A stretch of 18,925 bases of DNA from Candidatus Dadabacteria bacterium (lineage in GTDB: Bacteria > Desulfobacterota_D > UBA1144 > Nemesobacterales > JADFKM01), in assembly GCA_022564935.1 (NCBI GenBank), contig JADFKM010000042.1, forward strand, positions 1-18,925, written 5' to 3'. The position numbers and the translations under genes were made by a program. Below the pieces are notes generated by a model. It was not told the origin of the DNA. It ran no database searches and saw nothing but the letters and a program-made list of their open reading frames with translations. Positions 1-16,767 of this stretch are shown here, in pieces (the first letter of the stretch is position 1; each line of letters begins with the position of its first letter).

Positions 1-204
1 TGTACCGTTGATACAGATTGCGCCGAGGGCGAGGTATGCGACGCAGGAGCTTGTGTTGATGCGCCCGATTGTATCGTTGATACAGATTGCGCCGAAGGCG
101 AGGTGTGCGACGCAGGAGCTTGTGTTGATGCGCCCGATTGTACCGTTGATGCAGACTGCGCCGGAGGCGAGGTATGCGTGGCGGGAGCATGTGTTGAAGA
201 AGTA
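1..204 (+). repeat. 69-bp in-frame tandem repeat (three copies seen)
   Basis: Units start at 1, 70 and 139, a period of 69 bases (23 codons). Units 1 and 2 differ at only three bases by eye; unit 3 is more diverged, particularly at its end. The array runs into the left edge, so the full copy number is unknown. The repeat encodes the four-cysteine module of the protein at the left edge. Confidence 0.9.
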
Positions 205-345
205 GTCGTCGACGGCGGCGGCGGCGGATGCGCCATAGCCTCAACGGCAACAGCAGGCAGCGCGGCGGCTAATGCGCTCGTAGTATTGATTCCGCTTCTC
301 GGCATCGGGCTTCGCTCCATGCTGCGAAGGAGGGAAGAGAACTGA
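1..345 (+). CDS. Cys-rich tandem-repeat surface protein, C-terminal part, with Gly-Gly-Cys sorting tail
   Basis: The reading frame is open from base 1 and ends at TGA 343-345, so the gene begins outside the window. The visible 114 residues are about three copies of a 23-residue repeat of the form C-x-V-D-x-D-C-A-x-G-E-V-C-x-x-G-A-C-V-D-A-P-D, with four cysteines per unit, acidic and probably disulfide-bonded. Then come VVVDGGGGGCAIAS, a hydrophobic stretch (NALVVLIPLLGIGL) and a basic end (RSMLRRREEN). This Gly-rich/Cys, membrane helix, Arg-cluster order is that of bacterial C-terminal protein-sorting tails such as the MYXO-CTERM, Synerg-CTERM and JDVT-CTERM families, in which the tail is processed after export. 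I infer an exported, cell-surface-anchored protein. Function and N-terminal domains are unknown. A strong terminator follows. The frame is well supported by the repeat; assignment to one CTERM family is not certain. Confidence 0.85.
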   Translation, partial: CTVDTDCAEGEVCDAGACVDAPDCIVDTDCAEGEVCDAGACVDAPDCTVDADCAGGEVCVAGACVEEVVVDGGGGGCAIASTATAGSAAANALVVLIPLLGIGLRSMLRRREEN

Positions 346-5984: not shown

Positions 5985-6620
5985 ATGAAGAGAAACTTTC
6001 TTGCCGGGATTCTTGTGGTAGGGCCTTTTGGATTAACCTTTTTTATCCTCTTCAAACTCGGCAAGTGGATGGCTGAACTCCTGAGCGCGGCTCCGGCCAG
6101 CTTGATCAAATCGCTGTCCGAACTCCCCCCGTTCTGGTTCCAGGCTACCACGCTTTTAATCGGGTTTTCCGGTACGGTGCTCGTAGTGCTTATAACCGGA
6201 GCCCTGGCGCGCAACTTCGTCGGAGGCAAGCTGGTGGAGCTTGGAGAGAGAATCATATCCAAGATACCCATCGCAGGAACCTTCTACATGGCCACCAAGC
6301 AGATTATCGAAACCGTATTCACCGAGTCGGGCTTCAAGGGTATAAAAAGAGTCGTGATGTTCGAATTCCCCAGAACGGGTCTCTACGCATTAGGGTTCGT
6401 CACGGGCACTGTGCAGATGGGACGCGAGAGCCCTTTGCCGGGCAAGAAGCTTCTCAGCGTCTTTATGCCCACATCTCCAAACCCCACCTCCGGGTACTAC
6501 TTGATGATTCCAGAAGATGAAGTCAAAGATCTTCCCATTAGCATCGAAGAGGCCTTTAAAATAATTATGAGCATCGGGCTTGCATCTGAGCAAAGTGAAC
6601 CTTTTAGGGCTGGTACGTAG
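5985..6620 (+). CDS. DUF502 family inner-membrane protein
   Basis: A 211-residue protein of the DUF502 family, whose biochemical role is not established. Two hydrophobic segments are clear (about 8-33 and 53-80), followed by a conserved soluble part: ISKIPIAGTFYMATKQ (91-106), FEFPRTGLYALGFVTG (126-141) and a VFMPTSPNPTSGYYLMIPEDEV-like motif, all typical of the family. The start ATG 5985 is 18 bases after the ihfA stop in a T-rich spacer without a good ribosome binding site, so coupling to ihfA is possible. Its 3' end overlaps the start of tilS. Assignment to the family is firm; function is unknown. Confidence 0.9.
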   Translation: MKRNFLAGILVVGPFGLTFFILFKLGKWMAELLSAAPASLIKSLSELPPFWFQATTLLIGFSGTVLVVLITGALARNFVGGKLVELGERIISKIPIAGTFYMATKQIIETVFTESGFKGIKRVVMFEFPRTGLYALGFVTGTVQMGRESPLPGKKLLSVFMPTSPNPTSGYYLMIPEDEVKDLPISIEEAFKIIMSIGLASEQSEPFRAGT

Positions 6621-7992
6621 CACAATAGCAAAATACGACATGCTCCGAGCCGGAGAAACCGTCGTAGTAGGGGTTTCCGGGGGAGCCGATTCGGTTGCCT
6701 GCCTCCACCTGCTCTGCGAACTCAAGGAGCTAGCCCTCAATGTAGTGGCGGCCCACGTCAACCACGGTCTGAGAGGGCAGGAGAGCAAAAGGGACGCCGA
6801 CTTTGTTGAGGCTCTCGCCCGGGAAAAAGGGCTTGAGTGTGAGCTCTTCGAGGCTGACGCCGCTGGGTACGCCAGCGACCAGGGGCTCTCACTCGAAGAG
6901 GCCGGAAGGGTTATCCGCTATGGGTTCTTCGCGCAGATAAGCGAGAAATACAGCGGAGCTAAAATAGCCACAGCTCACACCTTTGACGACCAGGCCGAGA
7001 CCGTCCTGATGCGCCTAATACGCGGCAGCGGGCCAAAGGGCCTCGCAGGCATACCGCCGGTTGGGAAGGGGGGCGTTATAAGGCCCCTGATAGAAGCACG
7101 AAAAAGCGACCTCAAGATCTACCTCAACGAAAGGGGCGCGCAATGGTTGGAAGACTCTACTAACCTTAACCCGAATTTCCTCAGGAACAGAATCAGGCAC
7201 GAGCTTATACCTGTCCTTGAGCGCTACAACCCGTCAATAAAGCAAAAGCTCGTAAATACCTCCTCAATCTCCACGGCTTGCTGGGACTACATAGAACAGG
7301 CGGCTGAACAGAGCTTAGGCGACATGTTCGACGCCCTTCAGCCCGGAGAGCTTTGCGGAGACGCAGCGACGTATTCTCCCCTTCACAGGGCGGTCCGCTA
7401 CGCCGTACTTATGCTTGGCGTTGAAAGGGTGAAGGGAAACACGAAGCGCATCGGGTTCGAGCACATCTGCGCAATGGACGATTTCCTCCTTGGGGACACG
7501 ACCTCGGGGGAGATAGACCTTCCCGACGGTATAGCGCTTGTAAAGAGCTACGGCGTTTTCATGATAACAACTCTAGAGGATCTCGAACGCAGTTTTTCTT
7601 ACACCGTTCCGTCCCCCGGCAGATGGTCTTTCCCTTACGTCGAGTGCGAGATTACCGAAGGGGCAACGGACACTGATTTCTCGAGGCGGGACACCGCCGT
7701 GCTGGACGCCTCTTCCGTGGGCTTCCCCATAGAGATAAAGAGCTACGAGCAGGGGATGAGGTTCCATCCCCTGGGAATGGAGGGGACGAAAAAGCTGAAG
7801 AGGTTTTTCATCGACGCCAAGGTTCCCCGCTTTTTCAGGCGCCGCGTCCCGCTTTTCCTTTCGGGGGGGGAGATCGTTTGGGTCGGGGGGATGAGGGTTG
7901 ACGAGAGGTTTAAGCTTAGAGGAAAAGCTGCGCTCACCATCAGGCTCATAAGCCCGAAAATCCCCCAGCTCCCCTGGGCGGCTCAGAGGTAA
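6580..7992 (+). CDS. tilS: tRNA(Ile)-lysidine synthetase
   Basis: Uses ATP and lysine to convert the wobble cytidine of tRNA-Ile(CAU) to lysidine, so the tRNA reads AUA and is charged with isoleucine. Up to 470 residues. The N-terminal PP-loop ATPase has SGGADS (33-38), AHVNHGLRG (58-66) and TAHTFDDQAETVLMRLIRGSG (131-151); NFLRNRIRHELIPVL follows, then the TilS substrate-binding and C-terminal domains (RRRVPLFLSGGEIVWVGGMRVDERFK near the end). The start is uncertain: TTG at 6580 overlaps the DUF502 gene by 41 bases, and GTG at 6595 by 26; both keep the expected helix before the PP-loop. The overlap suggests translational coupling. The last 47 bases overlap the convergent methyltransferase gene. 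Confidence 0.95.
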   Translation: MHLSKVNLLGLVRSTIAKYDMLRAGETVVVGVSGGADSVACLHLLCELKELALNVVAAHVNHGLRGQESKRDADFVEALAREKGLECELFEADAAGYASDQGLSLEEAGRVIRYGFFAQISEKYSGAKIATAHTFDDQAETVLMRLIRGSGPKGLAGIPPVGKGGVIRPLIEARKSDLKIYLNERGAQWLEDSTNLNPNFLRNRIRHELIPVLERYNPSIKQKLVNTSSISTACWDYIEQAAEQSLGDMFDALQPGELCGDAATYSPLHRAVRYAVLMLGVERVKGNTKRIGFEHICAMDDFLLGDTTSGEIDLPDGIALVKSYGVFMITTLEDLERSFSYTVPSPGRWSFPYVECEITEGATDTDFSRRDTAVLDASSVGFPIEIKSYEQGMRFHPLGMEGTKKLKRFFIDAKVPRFFRRRVPLFLSGGEIVWVGGMRVDERFKLRGKAALTIRLISPKIPQLPWAAQR

Positions 7993-8671
7993 AAAGGGGC
8001 GGGAGCACCTCTACTCCGGGTTTGCCATCCTTTAGGAGCTCAGCCATAAAAAGCTCGGCCCCGCGGTCCGGCCTCGGGTGGATGAACCTGAGCCTCTTAA
8101 GCTCAAGACCCCTTTTGCCCGCAATGTCTACCAGCTCAGGGAGCCTCCTAGAAGGGTAAATGCAGCAGGCTCTCCGCCTGGGCTCAACCAGGTATTTCAT
8201 CGCGTCCATGACGTCTTCCATGGAGCAGCTAATCTCATGCCTCGCGATGGCCTTTTGCTCGGTGGGCGTTATCCTTCCGGCTCGCGGCTCCCTGTACGGG
8301 GGATTGGTGATTACGTAGTCAAACGACCTGCAGGGAAAGCTCCGGCTCACGTCCCGGAGGTCAAGCTCCACTATATCCACCACATTCCCGAAGCCGTTGA
8401 GAGCCACATTCCTTCTAGCAAGGGAAACGAGCTCGGGCTACAACTCTACCCCCACTACCCTTGGCGCCAGCCCCCTCTTGACCAGAATAAGCGGGATGAC
8501 GCCGTGGCCGGTGCCAAGGTCTATTACCTCCATCTTAGACCCGGTTCCCAAGAACTCGGCAAGCGCGAGGGCGTCGTGCGAATACCTGCACCCGGCCCTT
8601 TTCTGAACTATCTTCAGCCCGTAAGGCCCGTCGAGGGTTTCATCTTCAGTGAGTACGCTCTGAGTTTCCAT
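7946..8671 (-). pseudogene. TrmN6-type tRNA (adenine-N6) methyltransferase with an in-frame TAG stop
   Basis: The two open frames at 8438-8671 and 7946-8437 are in the same frame and together form one SAM-dependent methyltransferase like E. coli YfiC/TrmN6, which makes m6A37 in tRNA1-Val. The first part carries LDGPYGLKIVQKRAGCRYSHDALALAEF and the SAM motif VIDLGTGHGVIPLIL, ending VVGVEL; TAG at 8440-8438 follows; the second part resumes PELVSLARRNVALNGF, has the catalytic NPPY (ITNPPYREPRAG) and an intact C-terminus. Relatives have Gln just after VGVE[IL], so one CAG-to-TAG change explains the break. Nothing else in the gene looks damaged. ATG 8671 fits the family better than the further upstream TTG at 8716. 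Its 3' end overlaps tilS by 47 bases. It is either a recent nonsense mutant, a sequencing error, or read through. Confidence 0.85.
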
Positions 8672-9253: not shown

Positions 9254-12200
9254 ATGAGTGAGACAAAGGATATATACAAAGCCCTTTACGAAGACAACCC
9301 CTGTATGCAATTGACCGTCGATGTCGACGGGACGATAAAAACCATAAACAAGCTCGGCGCCGAGCAGCTCGGCTACAAGCCCGAGGAGCTTGTGGGCAAG
9401 TCCCTGGACTGCGTATGTCACAGCGAAGACAATGAAACTGCACACGAGAACATCAAAAAATGCCTAAAAAACCCCGGCAAGCCCTTCGACTGGGAGCTTA
9501 GAAAGGTGCGCAAGGACGACTCCGTGCTATGGGTCAAGGAAACGGCACGTTCGGTAAACGGCGTTGAAGGTGAGCAAAATGTGATCATTGTGAGCAACGA
9601 CATAACGGAGAGTAAAAAGTTAAACGATGAGCTGAACAATGCTCAGCTGGAGCTTGAGAATCTGTTAGAAGAGAGAACAGGAGAACTTGAGACGATCAAT
9701 GAGGCGCTGTATGAAGAGATAAGCGAGCGCAAGAAGACCGAGCTGGAGCTCACGGCCCGAACCCACCAGCATGCGTTGCTGGTAGAGCTCGGCCAACTAG
9801 CCCTATCGGAAACCGACCTGCTCAAACTGTTTAATGAGGCCGTCAGAATTACGGCAAAGACGCTAAAACTTAAGTACTGCAAAGTGCTCGAGCTGCTGCC
9901 CGACGGCAAAGAGCTGCTCTTAAAGTCCGGAGTGGGGTGGAAGAAAGGGTATGTGGGCAAGGCCACAGTCGGCACTGAAAAAAGCTCCCAGGCAGGTTAC
10001 ACTCTTTTCTTAGACGAGCCCGTTGTGGTCGAAAACCTGAATGAGGAGACGCGGTTCTCCCCCTCTGAACTCCTCACCGAACACGGTGTCGCAAGCGGGA
10101 TAAGCGTAGTCATTCAAGGCCGGAATCAACCCTGGGGTGTGCTTGGGGTGCATTCTAAACGAGTGCGCAACTTCAGCCGGGACGACGTTAATTTCCTTCA
10201 GGCGGTATCGAACACCCTCTCAGAGGCCATAGAGAGAAAGGAAGTCGAAGAAGCCCTCAAGGAAAACCTTTCAGAGCTGGAAAAAAAGAACCGCTACGAA
10301 AAGATAATCAGCACCGTAACAAGGAGCGTCCACCAATCGATCAACCTGGATGACGTGCTGGAAAACGCCGCTGGGGCCATGAGCGGAAACATCGAAAACG
10401 CAGAACATGTGGCCATTTACCTGGTCGAAGGCACCGATGCAGTAATGAGAGCTTTCCGTGGGCACCCGGATTGGTTCGTAAAGCTTGTCTCAAGGATTCC
10501 CCACCCCAGGGGCTTCACCTGGGAAGTAATCAATAACGGCAAGCCCCGCTACTGCCCTGATGCGGATAAGGACGAAGTCATAGGCGTCGCCGGAAAGAAA
10601 GTCGGAACAAAGAGCTATCTCGGTATGCCCATTTTTTCGGACGGAGAGGCGGTGGGATGTATATGCATTAATTCTTTTATAAAACACGCCTTCGACAAAG
10701 ACGATCTGAAGCAGCTGGAAATCGTCGCGGGCCAAATCCAGGTGGCCATCAACAACGCGCGTCAGGCCAAAGCGCTCAGAGAAAACCTTTCAGAGCTGGA
10801 AAAAAAGAACCGCTACGAAAAGATAATCAGCACCATAACAAGGAGCGTACACCAATCGATAAATCTGGATGACGTGCTGGAAAACGCAGTCGATGCCCTG
10901 AGCAAGAACATGGACGGGGTGGACAATGTGGTCATATATTTCAAGGAAGGCAAAGAGGCCGTTATGATGGCTTACAGGGGATTCTCGGTGGATATTATGG
11001 AGCGACTGGACATTATACCCTACCCCAAAGGGCTTACTTGGAAAACCCTCATAGAGGGCAAACCAATTTATTGTCCCGATACGGAAAAAGACCCCCATAT
11101 TGGCCCTGTCGGCAGGGAGATGGGAACGAAGAGCTACATCGCTATACCGCTCAAACACGAAGGGGAGACTATGGGCTGTATAGACATAAACTCTCTCGAA
11201 GTGGACGCGTTCGATGAAAATGATCTTAACGTTATCAAGATAGTAGCAAGCCAGATAGAGGTGGCTATCAACAACGCCCGGCAGACCGAAGCCATAAGGC
11301 TTTTTGATGAAAGGCTAAAGACAATATTCAGGGAATCTCTCGATGTGATAATGGTGGTGGATGCGGAAACAGAAGAGATTATAACCGTAAACAGAGCCAC
11401 CGAGAGGATACTTGGGTACAAAGAAGAAGACCTGAAAGGGAAAAACTTCCAATCTCTCCTATCGCCCAATTCCCACCTCTCAAGGGATGAATTGTTGGAT
11501 AATCTCAGTGTACAGGGGAGAGTGTTCGAGTCACAGGAGTTCGTTCGCCGGGACGGCACCGAGTGCCCGATAGACATTACCGCCACAATGGTTCCCTGGA
11601 ACGAGGGCAAAGCCATCCTTCTAACACTCAGGGACATTACCGAGCGAAGGAGGGCGGAAGAACAGATAAGGGAGCAGGCCGCACTGCTGGACAAAGCCCA
11701 GGACGCAATAATCGTCAGGGATATGGAAAACAAGATCATTTATTGGAACAAAAGCGCCGAGAGGCTGTACGGCTGGGCCGAAGAGCAGACTCTCGGCAAA
11801 AGGGCCGACGAGCTCCTCAACCCTAAGGACTTATCAAAGCTGGTGGAGGCAGAAAGCGCAGTGATTCTAAAGGGCGAATGGGCCGGAGAGCTGACTCAGG
11901 TTACAAACACTGGGGAGGAAAAGGTTGTAGAAAGCCGCTGGACCCTGGTCAAAGACGCCCACGGACGGAATAAATCGGTGCTTGTAATCAACACGGACAT
12001 CACAGAGAAAAAAGCCCTCGAAGCACAGTTCCTCCACGCCCAGCGCATGGAGAGCCTCGGCACCCTTGCCGGGGGCATCGCCCACGACCTTAACAACGTT
12101 CTCGCCCCCATACTTATGTCAGTCCAGATTCTGAAATCCAAGGCGACCGACGAAAGGTCTGAGAAAATGATCAACATCCTGGAGAGCAATACCCTGAGGG

Positions 12201-13177
12201 GGGCAGACATCGTCAGGCAGGTTCTCACTTTCGCCAGGGGGGTAGAGGGCAAAAGGGTGCCGGTCAATCCCAAGTACCTTATAACCGAGATTTCAAACAT
12301 TACTACCGGCACCTTCCCCAAGTCCATAAAGATCGAAACGAAGGTATCATCGGAGTTTTGGAACCTGGTGGGAGACGTCACCCAGCTGCTTCAGGTGCTG
12401 CTGAATCTCAGCCTCAACGCCCGCGACGCCATGCCGGGCGGCGGCCTGCTCAAGATCTCAAGTGGCTATAGTTATATCGACAAGAACTACGCGTCCATGA
12501 ATACTCAGGCCACTCCCGGCAACTACGTTGTCCTGACAGTCGAAGACTCAGGGAAGGGAATCAGGGCCGAGCTGCTCGACAAGATCTTCGAGCCCTTCTT
12601 CACAACCAAAGAGGTGGGCGAAGGCACCGGTCTGGGCCTATCCACCGTATCGGGGATTGTCAAGAGCCATAACGGTTTTATCGAAGTGGAAAGCGTTACC
12701 GACAAAGGGACAAAATTCAGTGTTTACATCCCCGCAAGCAAAACGAAAGACAGCGCAGAAGACAGCTCTTTAGATCTGAGCATCCCCCGGGGAAACGGCG
12801 AGCTTGTAATGATAGTTGACGACGAGCCCTCATTCAGGGAGATAACGAAAGAAACCCTGCTGTTCAACGGCTACAATGTATTAACCGCAAATGACGGCAC
12901 GGAAGCCGTCGCCCTGGCCGCGGAGAACAAAGAAGAAATCCAGGCGGTAATAACGGACATGATGATGCCTGTGATGGACGGAGCGGCGACCATAAAGGCG
13001 CTTCGGAAGATCAAACCCGAGCTAAAGATCATAGGCACAAGCGGCCTCAACGCAGAAGACAAGTATCTCCAGTCATCAACCACCGGGGTGCAGGCGTTTT
13101 TGTCAAAACCATATACGGCTGCGATGATGCTTCAATGCCTGGCAGAGATTCTGGACAAATCCACAAGTGCCGACTGA
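9254..13177 (+). CDS. Soluble PAS-GAF3-PAS2 hybrid histidine kinase with receiver domain
   Basis: 1307 residues without membrane segments, so probably a cytosolic sensor. Order: PAS (about 1-120), coiled coil (120-170), GAF1 (170-335), GAF2 (337-509), GAF3 (510-682), PAS (683-805), PAS (806-930), HisKA with phospho-acceptor His944 in AHDLNN, HATPase with N box LNARDAM and G1 box DSGKG (D1098), [18 protein letters not shown], and a C-terminal receiver with DDE and Asp1235 ([10 protein letters not shown]). It should autophosphorylate on His944 and pass phosphate to Asp1235; onward transfer would need an Hpt protein and a regulator, neither of which is adjacent. GGAG (9244-9247) sits 6 bases before ATG 9254. 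GAF2 and GAF3 are an internal duplication. The signal is unknown. Confidence 0.95.
10262..11299 (+). repeat. 519-nt in-frame tandem duplication encoding GAF2 and GAF3
   Basis: Copy 1 is 10262-10780 and copy 2 is 10781-11299, exactly 173 codons each, aligning with no gaps; I count 101 identical residues of 173. The first 54 bases of the two copies are identical and about 50 more differ at only four positions, covering the coiled-coil linker [18 protein letters not shown]; the rest is much more diverged at DNA level. Confidence 0.92.
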
Positions 13178-13413
13178 AGAGAGAACCGCGTTTAGCCCGG
13201 CTGTTTGAGCAATCTCCCCTAACCGATACACCCGTGCTTACGCTGGATTAACATTTCACTTTGACAAGCCTCTCCTCGCTTTCGATATATATGCCGCTTA
13301 CTCGCCCCCTTCCCGCCTTCAAGCTTAACGTCCTCCTAAGCCGTATCTTTAAAGCCGAACCGCCTACCACCCGGCCGGTGTTTGATTAATGAAAGTCGAA
13401 AACCAACATATTT

Positions 13414-13443
13414 TTGTTGCTCTAAAGACTTTTTTGTTAAAAT
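13414..13443 (+). promoter_or_regulatory. Candidate extended -10 promoter of the MASE1 kinase
   Basis: TTGTTG (13414-13419), an 18-base spacer, and TAAAAT (13438-13443) preceded by TG one base upstream (13435-13436), an extended -10 arrangement. It would give a leader of about 150 bases. Confidence 0.45.
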
Positions 13444-13510
13444 ATACTATATTATTTGTTTAGGTTTTGACTCGGGGTACATTTACGATACTTCACATCG
13501 ATTTCGGTAT

Positions 13511-13572
13511 CCCTGCGCCCTGCCGTTCGGTTCGCACCGGCGGGTTGTTTCCACGCAGGGAACAGGGGTGCG
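13511..13572 (+). other. Structured 5' leader with competing stems
   Basis: CCCTGCG (13511-13517) can pair with CGCAGGG (13554-13560), enclosing CCTGCCG (13519-13525) with CGGCGGG (13538-13544). Alternatively CGCACC (13533-13538) pairs with GGTGCG (13567-13572), which excludes the inner stem and crosses the outer one. No known riboswitch consensus was recognised. Confidence 0.4.
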
Positions 13573-13602
13573 GTTGTCACAATACTACGGCGGGGGTCCG
13601 CG

Positions 13603-16600
13603 GTGGGTAGGAACCAGCTGGAGCTAAGCCACTTCTATTACCTGCTCAGGTTGGTTGTTATAGCTGCCCTTTACTACGGCTCGGGCAAGCTGGTAGCAAC
13701 GTACGTTTTTATTGACTTCGAGGTGCCCTTTATATGGCCCCCGGCGGGGATTGCCCTGGCCGCCGTTCTCATAGGCGGATATCACTATCTGCCCGGCATC
13801 GTCTTCGGGTCACTCCTCCTGATGCTGACCTCCGGCTTCAGCGCACTCCCTGCCCTGGGTGCGGCCATGGGCAGCGTGCTCGGAGCCTTCCTGGGAGCAT
13901 ACCTTCTGCGCCTTGCGCCGTGGTTCGACGATTCGATGGAAAGGATTAAGTACGTAATCGGCTTTGTTGTGATAGGAGCCGTCTTAAGCTCCATTCCCGA
14001 AGCGGCCGCAAGAGTTCTTATACTCCAGGGGGACGGCTTGAGCGTCATCCACTCCCCATTGTTCATATTCGGCAAGTGGTGGTTAGCGCAATTTATGGGA
14101 GTACTTATCATAACCCCCGTAGCGCTACTCTGGTCCGTCCACCGTATTAAGGGGGAAAGCACAGCGCGTCTTATCGAAGCCGCAGCGCTTTTAATACTCC
14201 TGGGGTTTGCCAGCACTCAATCCTACACCTTCGGATTGCTTGAGCGCGACGCAGCTCCGGTCTCGTATTTGGTTTTCCCCTTTATCATATGGGCGGCGGT
14301 AAGATTTTCGGTGAGGGGCGCCGCAACTGCCGTATTTATAGTTACATCTGCTGTAATCTTCGATGTCGTGCGGCGCTACGGTGATTTCAACAATGCCTAC
14401 CCCTTAATGGATATGAACCACACACACGTGTTCCTGGCGCTCGTGGCTCTGAGCGCACTGCTCACAGCGGCGGCTGTCCACGAGAGGAGACCGGACGAGA
14501 AAGGGCTAGGTCTTCGCGATGAGGTGTACGGAGCGCTGCTTGAGAGCGCCGGGGCACAGATCTTCATCATTGACCCCGAAACCCGCCGCATTTCCGAGGC
14601 AAGCAGCGGCGTCGAGAAAACCCTCGGCTACTCGAGCAGTGAAATTATCGGCATGAGCATAGACGACATCGAACGTCCCGGAGGAGAAAAACAAGGCGAA
14701 GCGGAGGGGGGTTTAAACCTGAGGGATGAGAAATTCTTCAGGAGGAAAGACGGAACCTTCCTGCCGGTGGTAACAAGCTCCGGACTCATCGAGTATGGGG
14801 GCAGGAAGCAGGTAATGTGCGTGGTACGGGACGTTTCCGAGCCGGGGCCCCCGTCCGCGGAACAGACACCGGACGATAGCGAAGAAATGAACAAAATGCT
14901 GTTCGAGTCCCTCCTTTACGGTGCCGCAAAGTGCGAGCTCGTATACATGGAGGACGAAAAACCGGTTGACAGCCGCATTCTCGATGTCAACTCGGCGTAC
15001 GAGACACTTACAGGCATAAAACGGGAAGACGCCGTGGGCAAGAGGGTTTCTGTTCTCTTCAACCTGAACAAGGACCCGAACCTCGATCTGATCGACGCTA
15101 TAGTCTCTCGGGGAAAGCCCACTCACTTCGACACCTACTTCAAGCCCCTCAACAAGCATTTCAACGTGTCCATACTGCCCTCGAAGCGGGGCAGATACAC
15201 CGCCATTTACCACGACATCACGCTAAACAAGGTGGTGGAAGTGGCTTTGAGGGAAAGCGAGGAGAGGCTCGAGCTGACGCTTAGGAGCATAAGGGACGGC
15301 GTAGTGGCGCTTGATTCCAAAGGCCGGATAGTTTTCGCCAACCGCGCGGGCAGGCAGTACCTGGAGCTTATGGGCGACGCGGAGGTCGGCGAGCGTCTGA
15401 CCCATCTAGGCAAATTCCCCATAGAAGACCTGATAAAGCACTCCGGGGTGGGAAAGACCTTTCACGAGATAACCCTCGAGGAAGACAGCGAAAGGGTGTT
15501 TGAAGTGTCTTCCCAGTCCATGGACGAGAGCAACTCCGCCAAGGGAGAGGTACTTGTCATCAGGGAGGTGACCGAGGAAAGGGCGATAAGGAAAAGTATC
15601 GAAGGACAGTCCCGCCTGGCCGCCGTGGGTCAGCTGGCCGCAGGCATAGCTCACGATTTCAACAACATCCTCACGGTGATGATAGGATACATCGACCTTG
15701 TGCTGTACTCTAAATCCATTCCCGAAAACGTCAGGTCAAACCTGAACCTGGTGATCGACCAGGGCAAGAAGGCAAGCAAGCTCATCTCACAGATCCTGGA
15801 CTTCAGCCGCAGGTCGGTCTCAGAGCGCTTACGCCTCGATCTACTCCCGTTCCTGAAGGACAACCTGAAGCTCTTCGAGCGCACGATCCCTGAGAGCGTG
15901 AGAATTGTCACAGAGTTTTATCCCGGCGAGTACTGGGTGCTCGGAAGCAGCCCCCAGCTCCAGCAAATCCTAACAAACCTTGCCGCCAACGCCGGGGACG
16001 CAATGCCGGGCGGCGGAAAACTGTTTATCAGCCTGCGGCACGTTGATCTTCCTGACAAAAAGAGCTTGCCGTTCCCACAGATGTCCACTGGACGCTGGGT
16101 CAAGCTTTCTATCTCCGACACGGGGAGCGGGATATCAAAGGAGCACATACCCCACATATTCGAGCCCTTCTTCACCACAAAAGGGCCGGGGGAAGGGACA
16201 GGGCTCGGCCTCGCGCAGGTCTACGGTCTAGTAAAGCAGCATGAGGGCTTTATCGACGTCGAGAGCGACGGAATGAGCGGAACCACTTTCAACATCTATC
16301 TCCCCCCTCCCACGAGCGCACCACAGCATGAAGAGGAGGAGACTGACGAAAGCACCAAGATACTGAAGGGCGGTGGAGAGACCATACTCCTTGTCGAAGA
16401 CGAGCCTCTTGTGCTTGAGACCACTAAAAACATGCTTGAAGGGCTGGGCTACAACGTGCTAACCGCCTCTAACGGCAAAGAGGCGCTCGAAATATTCTAT
16501 AATAAAAGGAGCGAGATAGACCTTGTCGTCACAGACATGGTGATGCCGGAGGTGGATGGGGCGGCGTTGCTGAGGGAGCTCAAAGAAACCGCACCGCACC

Positions 16601-16767
16601 AAAAAGCCCTGGTTATGACGGGCTACCCGCTTGGAGAAGAGTCCAGGAACCTGCTTACACAGGGCAGGGTCAAGTGGATTCAAAAACCTTTAGACCTGAT
16701 CGAGCTGTCAAGGATCATCGGCTCCCTCCTCACTACCCGTGAAGCAGATGTTATAAACCATTCGTGA
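13603..16767 (+). CDS. MASE1-anchored PAS hybrid histidine kinase with receiver domain
   Basis: 1054 residues. The N-terminus (about 10-290) is a MASE1 membrane sensor domain: multiple hydrophobic helices with YYGSGKLVATY and the typical VPFIWPPAGIALAAVLIGGYHYLPGIVFGSLLL. Three PAS-like domains follow (about 305-425, 430-545, 548-665), then HisKA with His684 in AHDFNN, HATPase (N box ANAGDAM, G1 box DTGSG at D839, [17 protein letters not shown]) and a receiver with Asp978 (TDMVMPEVDG). It is a membrane-bound phosphorelay kinase; the ligand of MASE1 domains is not generally known. Its kinase-receiver half resembles that of the upstream soluble kinase, suggesting paralogy. Start GTG 13603 has GGGGG 6 bases upstream, inside a small GCGG/CCGC hairpin; no better start exists. 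No output regulator is adjacent. Confidence 0.94.
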   Translation: MGRNQLELSHFYYLLRLVVIAALYYGSGKLVATYVFIDFEVPFIWPPAGIALAAVLIGGYHYLPGIVFGSLLLMLTSGFSALPALGAAMGSVLGAFLGAYLLRLAPWFDDSMERIKYVIGFVVIGAVLSSIPEAAARVLILQGDGLSVIHSPLFIFGKWWLAQFMGVLIITPVALLWSVHRIKGESTARLIEAAALLILLGFASTQSYTFGLLERDAAPVSYLVFPFIIWAAVRFSVRGAATAVFIVTSAVIFDVVRRYGDFNNAYPLMDMNHTHVFLALVALSALLTAAAVHERRPDEKGLGLRDEVYGALLESAGAQIFIIDPETRRISEASSGVEKTLGYSSSEIIGMSIDDIERPGGEKQGEAEGGLNLRDEKFFRRKDGTFLPVVTSSGLIEYGGRKQVMCVVRDVSEPGPPSAEQTPDDSEEMNKMLFESLLYGAAKCELVYMEDEKPVDSRILDVNSAYETLTGIKREDAVGKRVSVLFNLNKDPNLDLIDAIVSRGKPTHFDTYFKPLNKHFNVSILPSKRGRYTAIYHDITLNKVVEVALRESEERLELTLRSIRDGVVALDSKGRIVFANRAGRQYLELMGDAEVGERLTHLGKFPIEDLIKHSGVGKTFHEITLEEDSERVFEVSSQSMDESNSAKGEVLVIREVTEERAIRKSIEGQSRLAAVGQLAAGIAHDFNNILTVMIGYIDLVLYSKSIPENVRSNLNLVIDQGKKASKLISQILDFSRRSVSERLRLDLLPFLKDNLKLFERTIPESVRIVTEFYPGEYWVLGSSPQLQQILTNLAANAGDAMPGGGKLFISLRHVDLPDKKSLPFPQMSTGRWVKLSISDTGSGISKEHIPHIFEPFFTTKGPGEGTGLGLAQVYGLVKQHEGFIDVESDGMSGTTFNIYLPPPTSAPQHEEEETDESTKILKGGGETILLVEDEPLVLETTKNMLEGLGYNVLTASNGKEALEIFYNKRSEIDLVVTDMVMPEVDGAALLRELKETAPHQKALVMTGYPLGEESRNLLTQGRVKWIQKPLDLIELSRIIGSLLTTREADVINHS

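Follow-up and report, generated by a model that had tools for sequence, protein, structure and literature searches.

The window, that is, the whole stretch of 18,925 nt analysed here, corresponds to contig 45 in a draft MAG that is fragmented (104 contigs totalling 1.99 Mb) and 88.6% complete. On the minus strand, a TrmN6-like class-I methyltransferase gene can be read through from an ATG at 8671 to a TGA at 7948-7946 (7946-8671, 241 codons plus stop). This frame is open except for a single in-frame TAG at 8440-8438, around which the minus strand reads GTA GTG GGG GTA GAG TTG TAG CCC GAG CTC GTT. The TAG separates an N-terminal piece of 77 codons (8441-8671, minus strand), which contains the SAM-binding motif DLGTGHGV, from a C-terminal piece of 163 codons plus stop (7946-8437, minus strand), which contains NPPY. 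At its 3' end the gene overlaps by 47 bases with the convergent tilS (6580-7992, plus strand), and the flanks of the orthologues at two loci of relatives (L010 and L013) read as the same convergent neighbour. Elsewhere in the window, a tandem pair of very large genes occupies 9254-16767 (plus strand); both are multidomain and sensor-kinase-like, with receiver-like C-terminal ends. Cys-rich repeats that follow the pattern D(T/A)DC..GE.C..GACV.APDC (1-345, plus strand) reach the contig edge, and the contig therefore probably ends in a repeat.

A preliminary description of this DNA had proposed that the TAG splits an otherwise intact gene at a position where Gln is expected, and comparison with homologues bears this out. 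The stop column was compared with 21 homologues, five from relatives of the same order and 16 more distant, and all of them, including those of distant Bacillota, Halanaerobia-type bacteria and Aquificota, have Gln (CAA or CAG) there. The orthologue is a single protein, 49-54% identical, in each of the five relatives of the same order, which include Candidatus Dadabacteria CSP1-2, nzgw197 and Bacterium HR37, and relatives begin at a site equivalent to ATG 8671 (M..-EDETLDGP). Relatives with two truly separate proteins, envisaged in the preliminary description, were not seen (0/21 homologues split), and the C-terminal piece did not occur as a separate gene in any relative examined. An orthologue in relative G019 that appeared to carry an internal TAG was rejected, its TAG being the terminal stop only. 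The matches to the Pfam domain MTS (PF05175, E = 2.6e-11, 43.9 bits against a cut-off of 23) and to PDB entry 3lpm (E = 5e-40) both span the stop. The window gene deviates at none of the 13 family-invariant columns that could be tested. With one lesion and the remainder intact, a single CAG-to-TAG change suffices, as had been suggested.

Judged from its sequence, the intact gene is by family an ordinary TrmN6/YfiC-like class-I SAM adenine-N6 methyltransferase; the MTS domain together with DLGTGHGV and NPPY places it in the class-I adenine-N6 methyltransferase superfamily (TrmN6/YfiC-like). The Escherichia coli enzyme TrmN6, also called TrmM or YfiC (tRNA1(Val) adenine-37 N6-methyltransferase), makes m6A37 in tRNA-Val(UAC) (PMC4132733). 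The window gene resembles it in DLGTGxG, NPPY and the conserved ExQ, and the best solved relatives (3lpm, 7wm5 and 7wm6) match the read-through protein over almost its entire length, whereas the in-frame TAG at the conserved Gln sets it apart. The score against the TrmN equivalog model NF047853 (46.5 bits) is also far under the cut-off of 350, so that a tRNA substrate is presumptive and the predicted specificity stays at the family level. The earlier name of tRNA methyltransferase thus stands for the family but not for a tRNA-Val m6A37 identity. The genome carries a candidate substrate, a tRNA-Val(UAC) that has A37.

Further stops were sought in about 1.09 Mb of the 1.99 Mb MAG by scanning codon usage for stops with coding sequence on either side, followed by homologue comparison. 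Many candidates from the codon scan were dropped as gene junctions or antisense shadow frames. Among all stops flanked by coding-like sequence in the sampled genome, the TAG of the window gene ranked with the strongest, and it therefore does not lie in a chance frame. Most of the broken genes were identified with Pfam. There was no Pfam match for a hotdog-like gene, and the names hotdog, GST and glycosyltransferase are putative ones, given on sequence resemblance.

The scan does not support the earlier treatment of the stop as a special case, as conserved genes elsewhere in the MAG, guaA and ilvC among them, also contain lone TAG, TGA or TAA codons. The genes guaA and ilvC are both single-copy and lie on the plus strand. 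In ilvC, which is about 80% identical to its nearest relatives, one in-frame TAG lies near residue 86 (C5:19816, L170:1317) and the gene is otherwise full length; in guaA, with about 85% identity over the C-terminal domain, one in-frame TAG lies 27 codons before the end (C89:1527, L076:1527). The residues replaced in the two genes are variable, and an internal stop is absent from every relative in which the respective gene was found (30 relatives were searched for guaA). An FHA-EAL gene on the minus strand has one in-frame TAG (C51:13800, L303:13800), with EAL homologues too distant to fix the residue replaced. Two in-frame TAGs interrupt a TlpA-like thioredoxin gene (Thioredoxin_10; C34:13067 and 12461, L227, minus strand), and both sit at a Trp of six out of six close relatives.

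The hotdog-like gene (C27, plus strand) contains a TAG at 44901 and a TGA at 45060, the latter at a Lys or Arg of relatives, and the GST-like gene directly after it on the same strand has a TAA plus a frame change (both genes, L173:4901-5756); the two genes are likely to be genuine pseudogenes or to lie in poor sequence. A sugar-nucleotide epimerase gene, 84% identical to that of relative G003, has a TGA close to a contig end (C44:31, L299:31, minus strand), at a Trp of that one relative. In a deoxyhypusine-synthase-family gene (C60:401, L311:401, plus strand) the in-frame TGA falls on a Cys kept in 7/7 relatives. A glycosyltransferase-like gene (C30, L223:9911-10435, minus strand) contains a TGA as well as a frame change that is compensated and a further one near its end. 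No stops were found at these sites in relatives' orthologues of the window gene, ilvC, guaA and the TlpA-like, hotdog and deoxyhypusine-synthase-family genes.

Leaving aside the glycosyltransferase, which is broken by frame changes, the lone in-frame stops comprise seven TAG, three TGA and one TAA. An excess of TAG was considered and rejected as not significant against codon usage, which predicts that TAG makes up 49-58% of random-substitution stops (P = 0.24-0.47 for at least seven TAG among 11). After inspection of the lists, five of 286 genes in the MAG were broken internally versus 0 of 293 in the control relative G003, a difference that by our own arithmetic would arise by chance in about 3% of cases (one-sided). 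At the codon usage of the MAG about 3.4% of random substitutions produce a stop, and at that rate about 11 nonsense codons in each Mb would imply around 300 wrong bases, a rough figure with which possible real pseudogenes may be mixed. Compared with its relatives, the MAG shows the excess of internal stops, of several types and in conserved single-copy genes, that is looked for in assembly error.

We consider the window TAG to be most probably a wrong base in the draft MAG consensus, with a probability of roughly 0.6 for this base. The organism would have CAG at this position, the T having been called from reads that were too few, damaged or of mixed strains, and the protein would be made as one normal polypeptide, its codon read without anything unusual. 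A base error (or an ordinary dead gene) is the most likely explanation because comparable isolated stops, TAG, TGA and TAA alike, occur in many other genes of the MAG, with the core genes guaA and ilvC among them. Internal stops in excess are a published sign of an assembly with low coverage or poor quality (Cooley and Wright 2024, PMC11017572). The stops described here are like such spurious pseudogenes in being single, of all kinds and in conserved genes, with relatives lacking them, but some genes of the MAG have more than one lesion and could be true pseudogenes. Some of the other lesions are clustered, in the TlpA-like gene, the hotdog/GST pair and the glycosyltransferase, a pattern less suggestive of uniform error than of true pseudogenes or of stretches where the sequence is poor. 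Neither the relatives nor the genome contigs included a second sequence of this species.

The same TAG could also be a real nonsense allele, a possible but less favoured explanation under which CAG changed to TAG in the strain and a dispensable tRNA methyltransferase was lost. Translation would then yield a 77-residue fragment without the catalytic NPPY, and the remainder would be untranslated or give only an inactive piece. One transition is enough for such an allele, and there are other genes of the MAG with more than one lesion, in the manner of real pseudogenes. A strong match to the methyltransferase was obtained in only five of about 42 same-order genomes; given this patchy occurrence the gene is probably dispensable, which makes a real nonsense allele plausible. 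The window gene itself, however, has neither a second lesion nor decay at family-invariant positions. Lone stops of the same type also interrupt guaA and ilvC, two genes whose loss is difficult to tolerate, and this class of stops must therefore be artefactual in part; loss of both genes is not expected in a prototroph.

Natural amber readthrough or recoding, in which a suppressor or near-cognate tRNA sometimes reads TAG to give the full-length protein, is very unlikely, even with seven in-frame TAGs in coding sequence and two of them in the likely essential ilvC and guaA. TAA and TGA turn up likewise, and TAG stands in place of Gln in the window gene and of Trp in the TlpA-like gene. Since the stops replace Gln, Trp, Cys, Lys/Arg and variable residues, no single codon meaning fits, and the orthologues of relatives are free of stops at these sites. 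The preliminary description had taken TAG to be a working stop, as it ends holB, pheT, ihfA, the DUF502 gene and the Dph6 gene, and had regarded genome-wide recoding as unlikely. The wider data agree on both counts: TAG terminates 48 of 140 well-scored frames, and 59 of the 62 TAG-ended genes end within eight residues of the homologue's end, so that TAG neither represents a single amino acid nor is depleted as a terminator, as would be expected after reassignment.

The search for an amber suppressor or tRNA-Pyl that had been proposed gave no tRNA with a CTA anticodon (CUA) among 36 tRNAs in the 88.6%-complete MAG, and the Gln tRNAs are ordinary (anticodons TTG and CTG). The best PylS match in this incomplete assembly reached 22.3 bits against a cut-off of 178, which does not point to pyrrolysine or amber recoding; pyrrolysine was rejected, the weak match lying in a 492-residue frame that is probably an ordinary class-II tRNA synthetase. 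Selenocysteine was likewise rejected for the gene with TGA at Cys: no SelB scored above the cut-off, the best matches resembling other translational GTPases, and matches to tRNA-Sec were under the cut-off and nearly all at loci already listed as ordinary tRNAs. It is also highly improbable that in this Dadabacteria-related bacterium near-cognate readthrough, efficient and independent of a dedicated suppressor tRNA, lets core genes (ilvC, guaA and the tRNA methyltransferase) work despite in-frame stops, chiefly amber. That the two pieces, both open and coding-like, are genuine proteins working as split halves has a negligible probability, as every homologue examined is one protein, the break comes directly after the acidic strand that is predicted to bind SAM, and the second piece has no possible start before GTG 8407, where the Shine-Dalgarno-like run AGAAGGA is too close (only about 2-3 nt upstream).

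For a wrong base as the preferred explanation, the read error named among the original options is thus retained. Because lone stops occur across the MAG, most of the weight shifts to assembly error or ordinary decay and away from the site-specific readthrough that had also been listed. The case calls for caution, in that the view of a single gene suggests recoding or readthrough whereas the genome-wide view is one of a background of stray stops. Genome-wide counts of internal stops by stop type and replaced residue may serve as a quick filter for findings of this kind.
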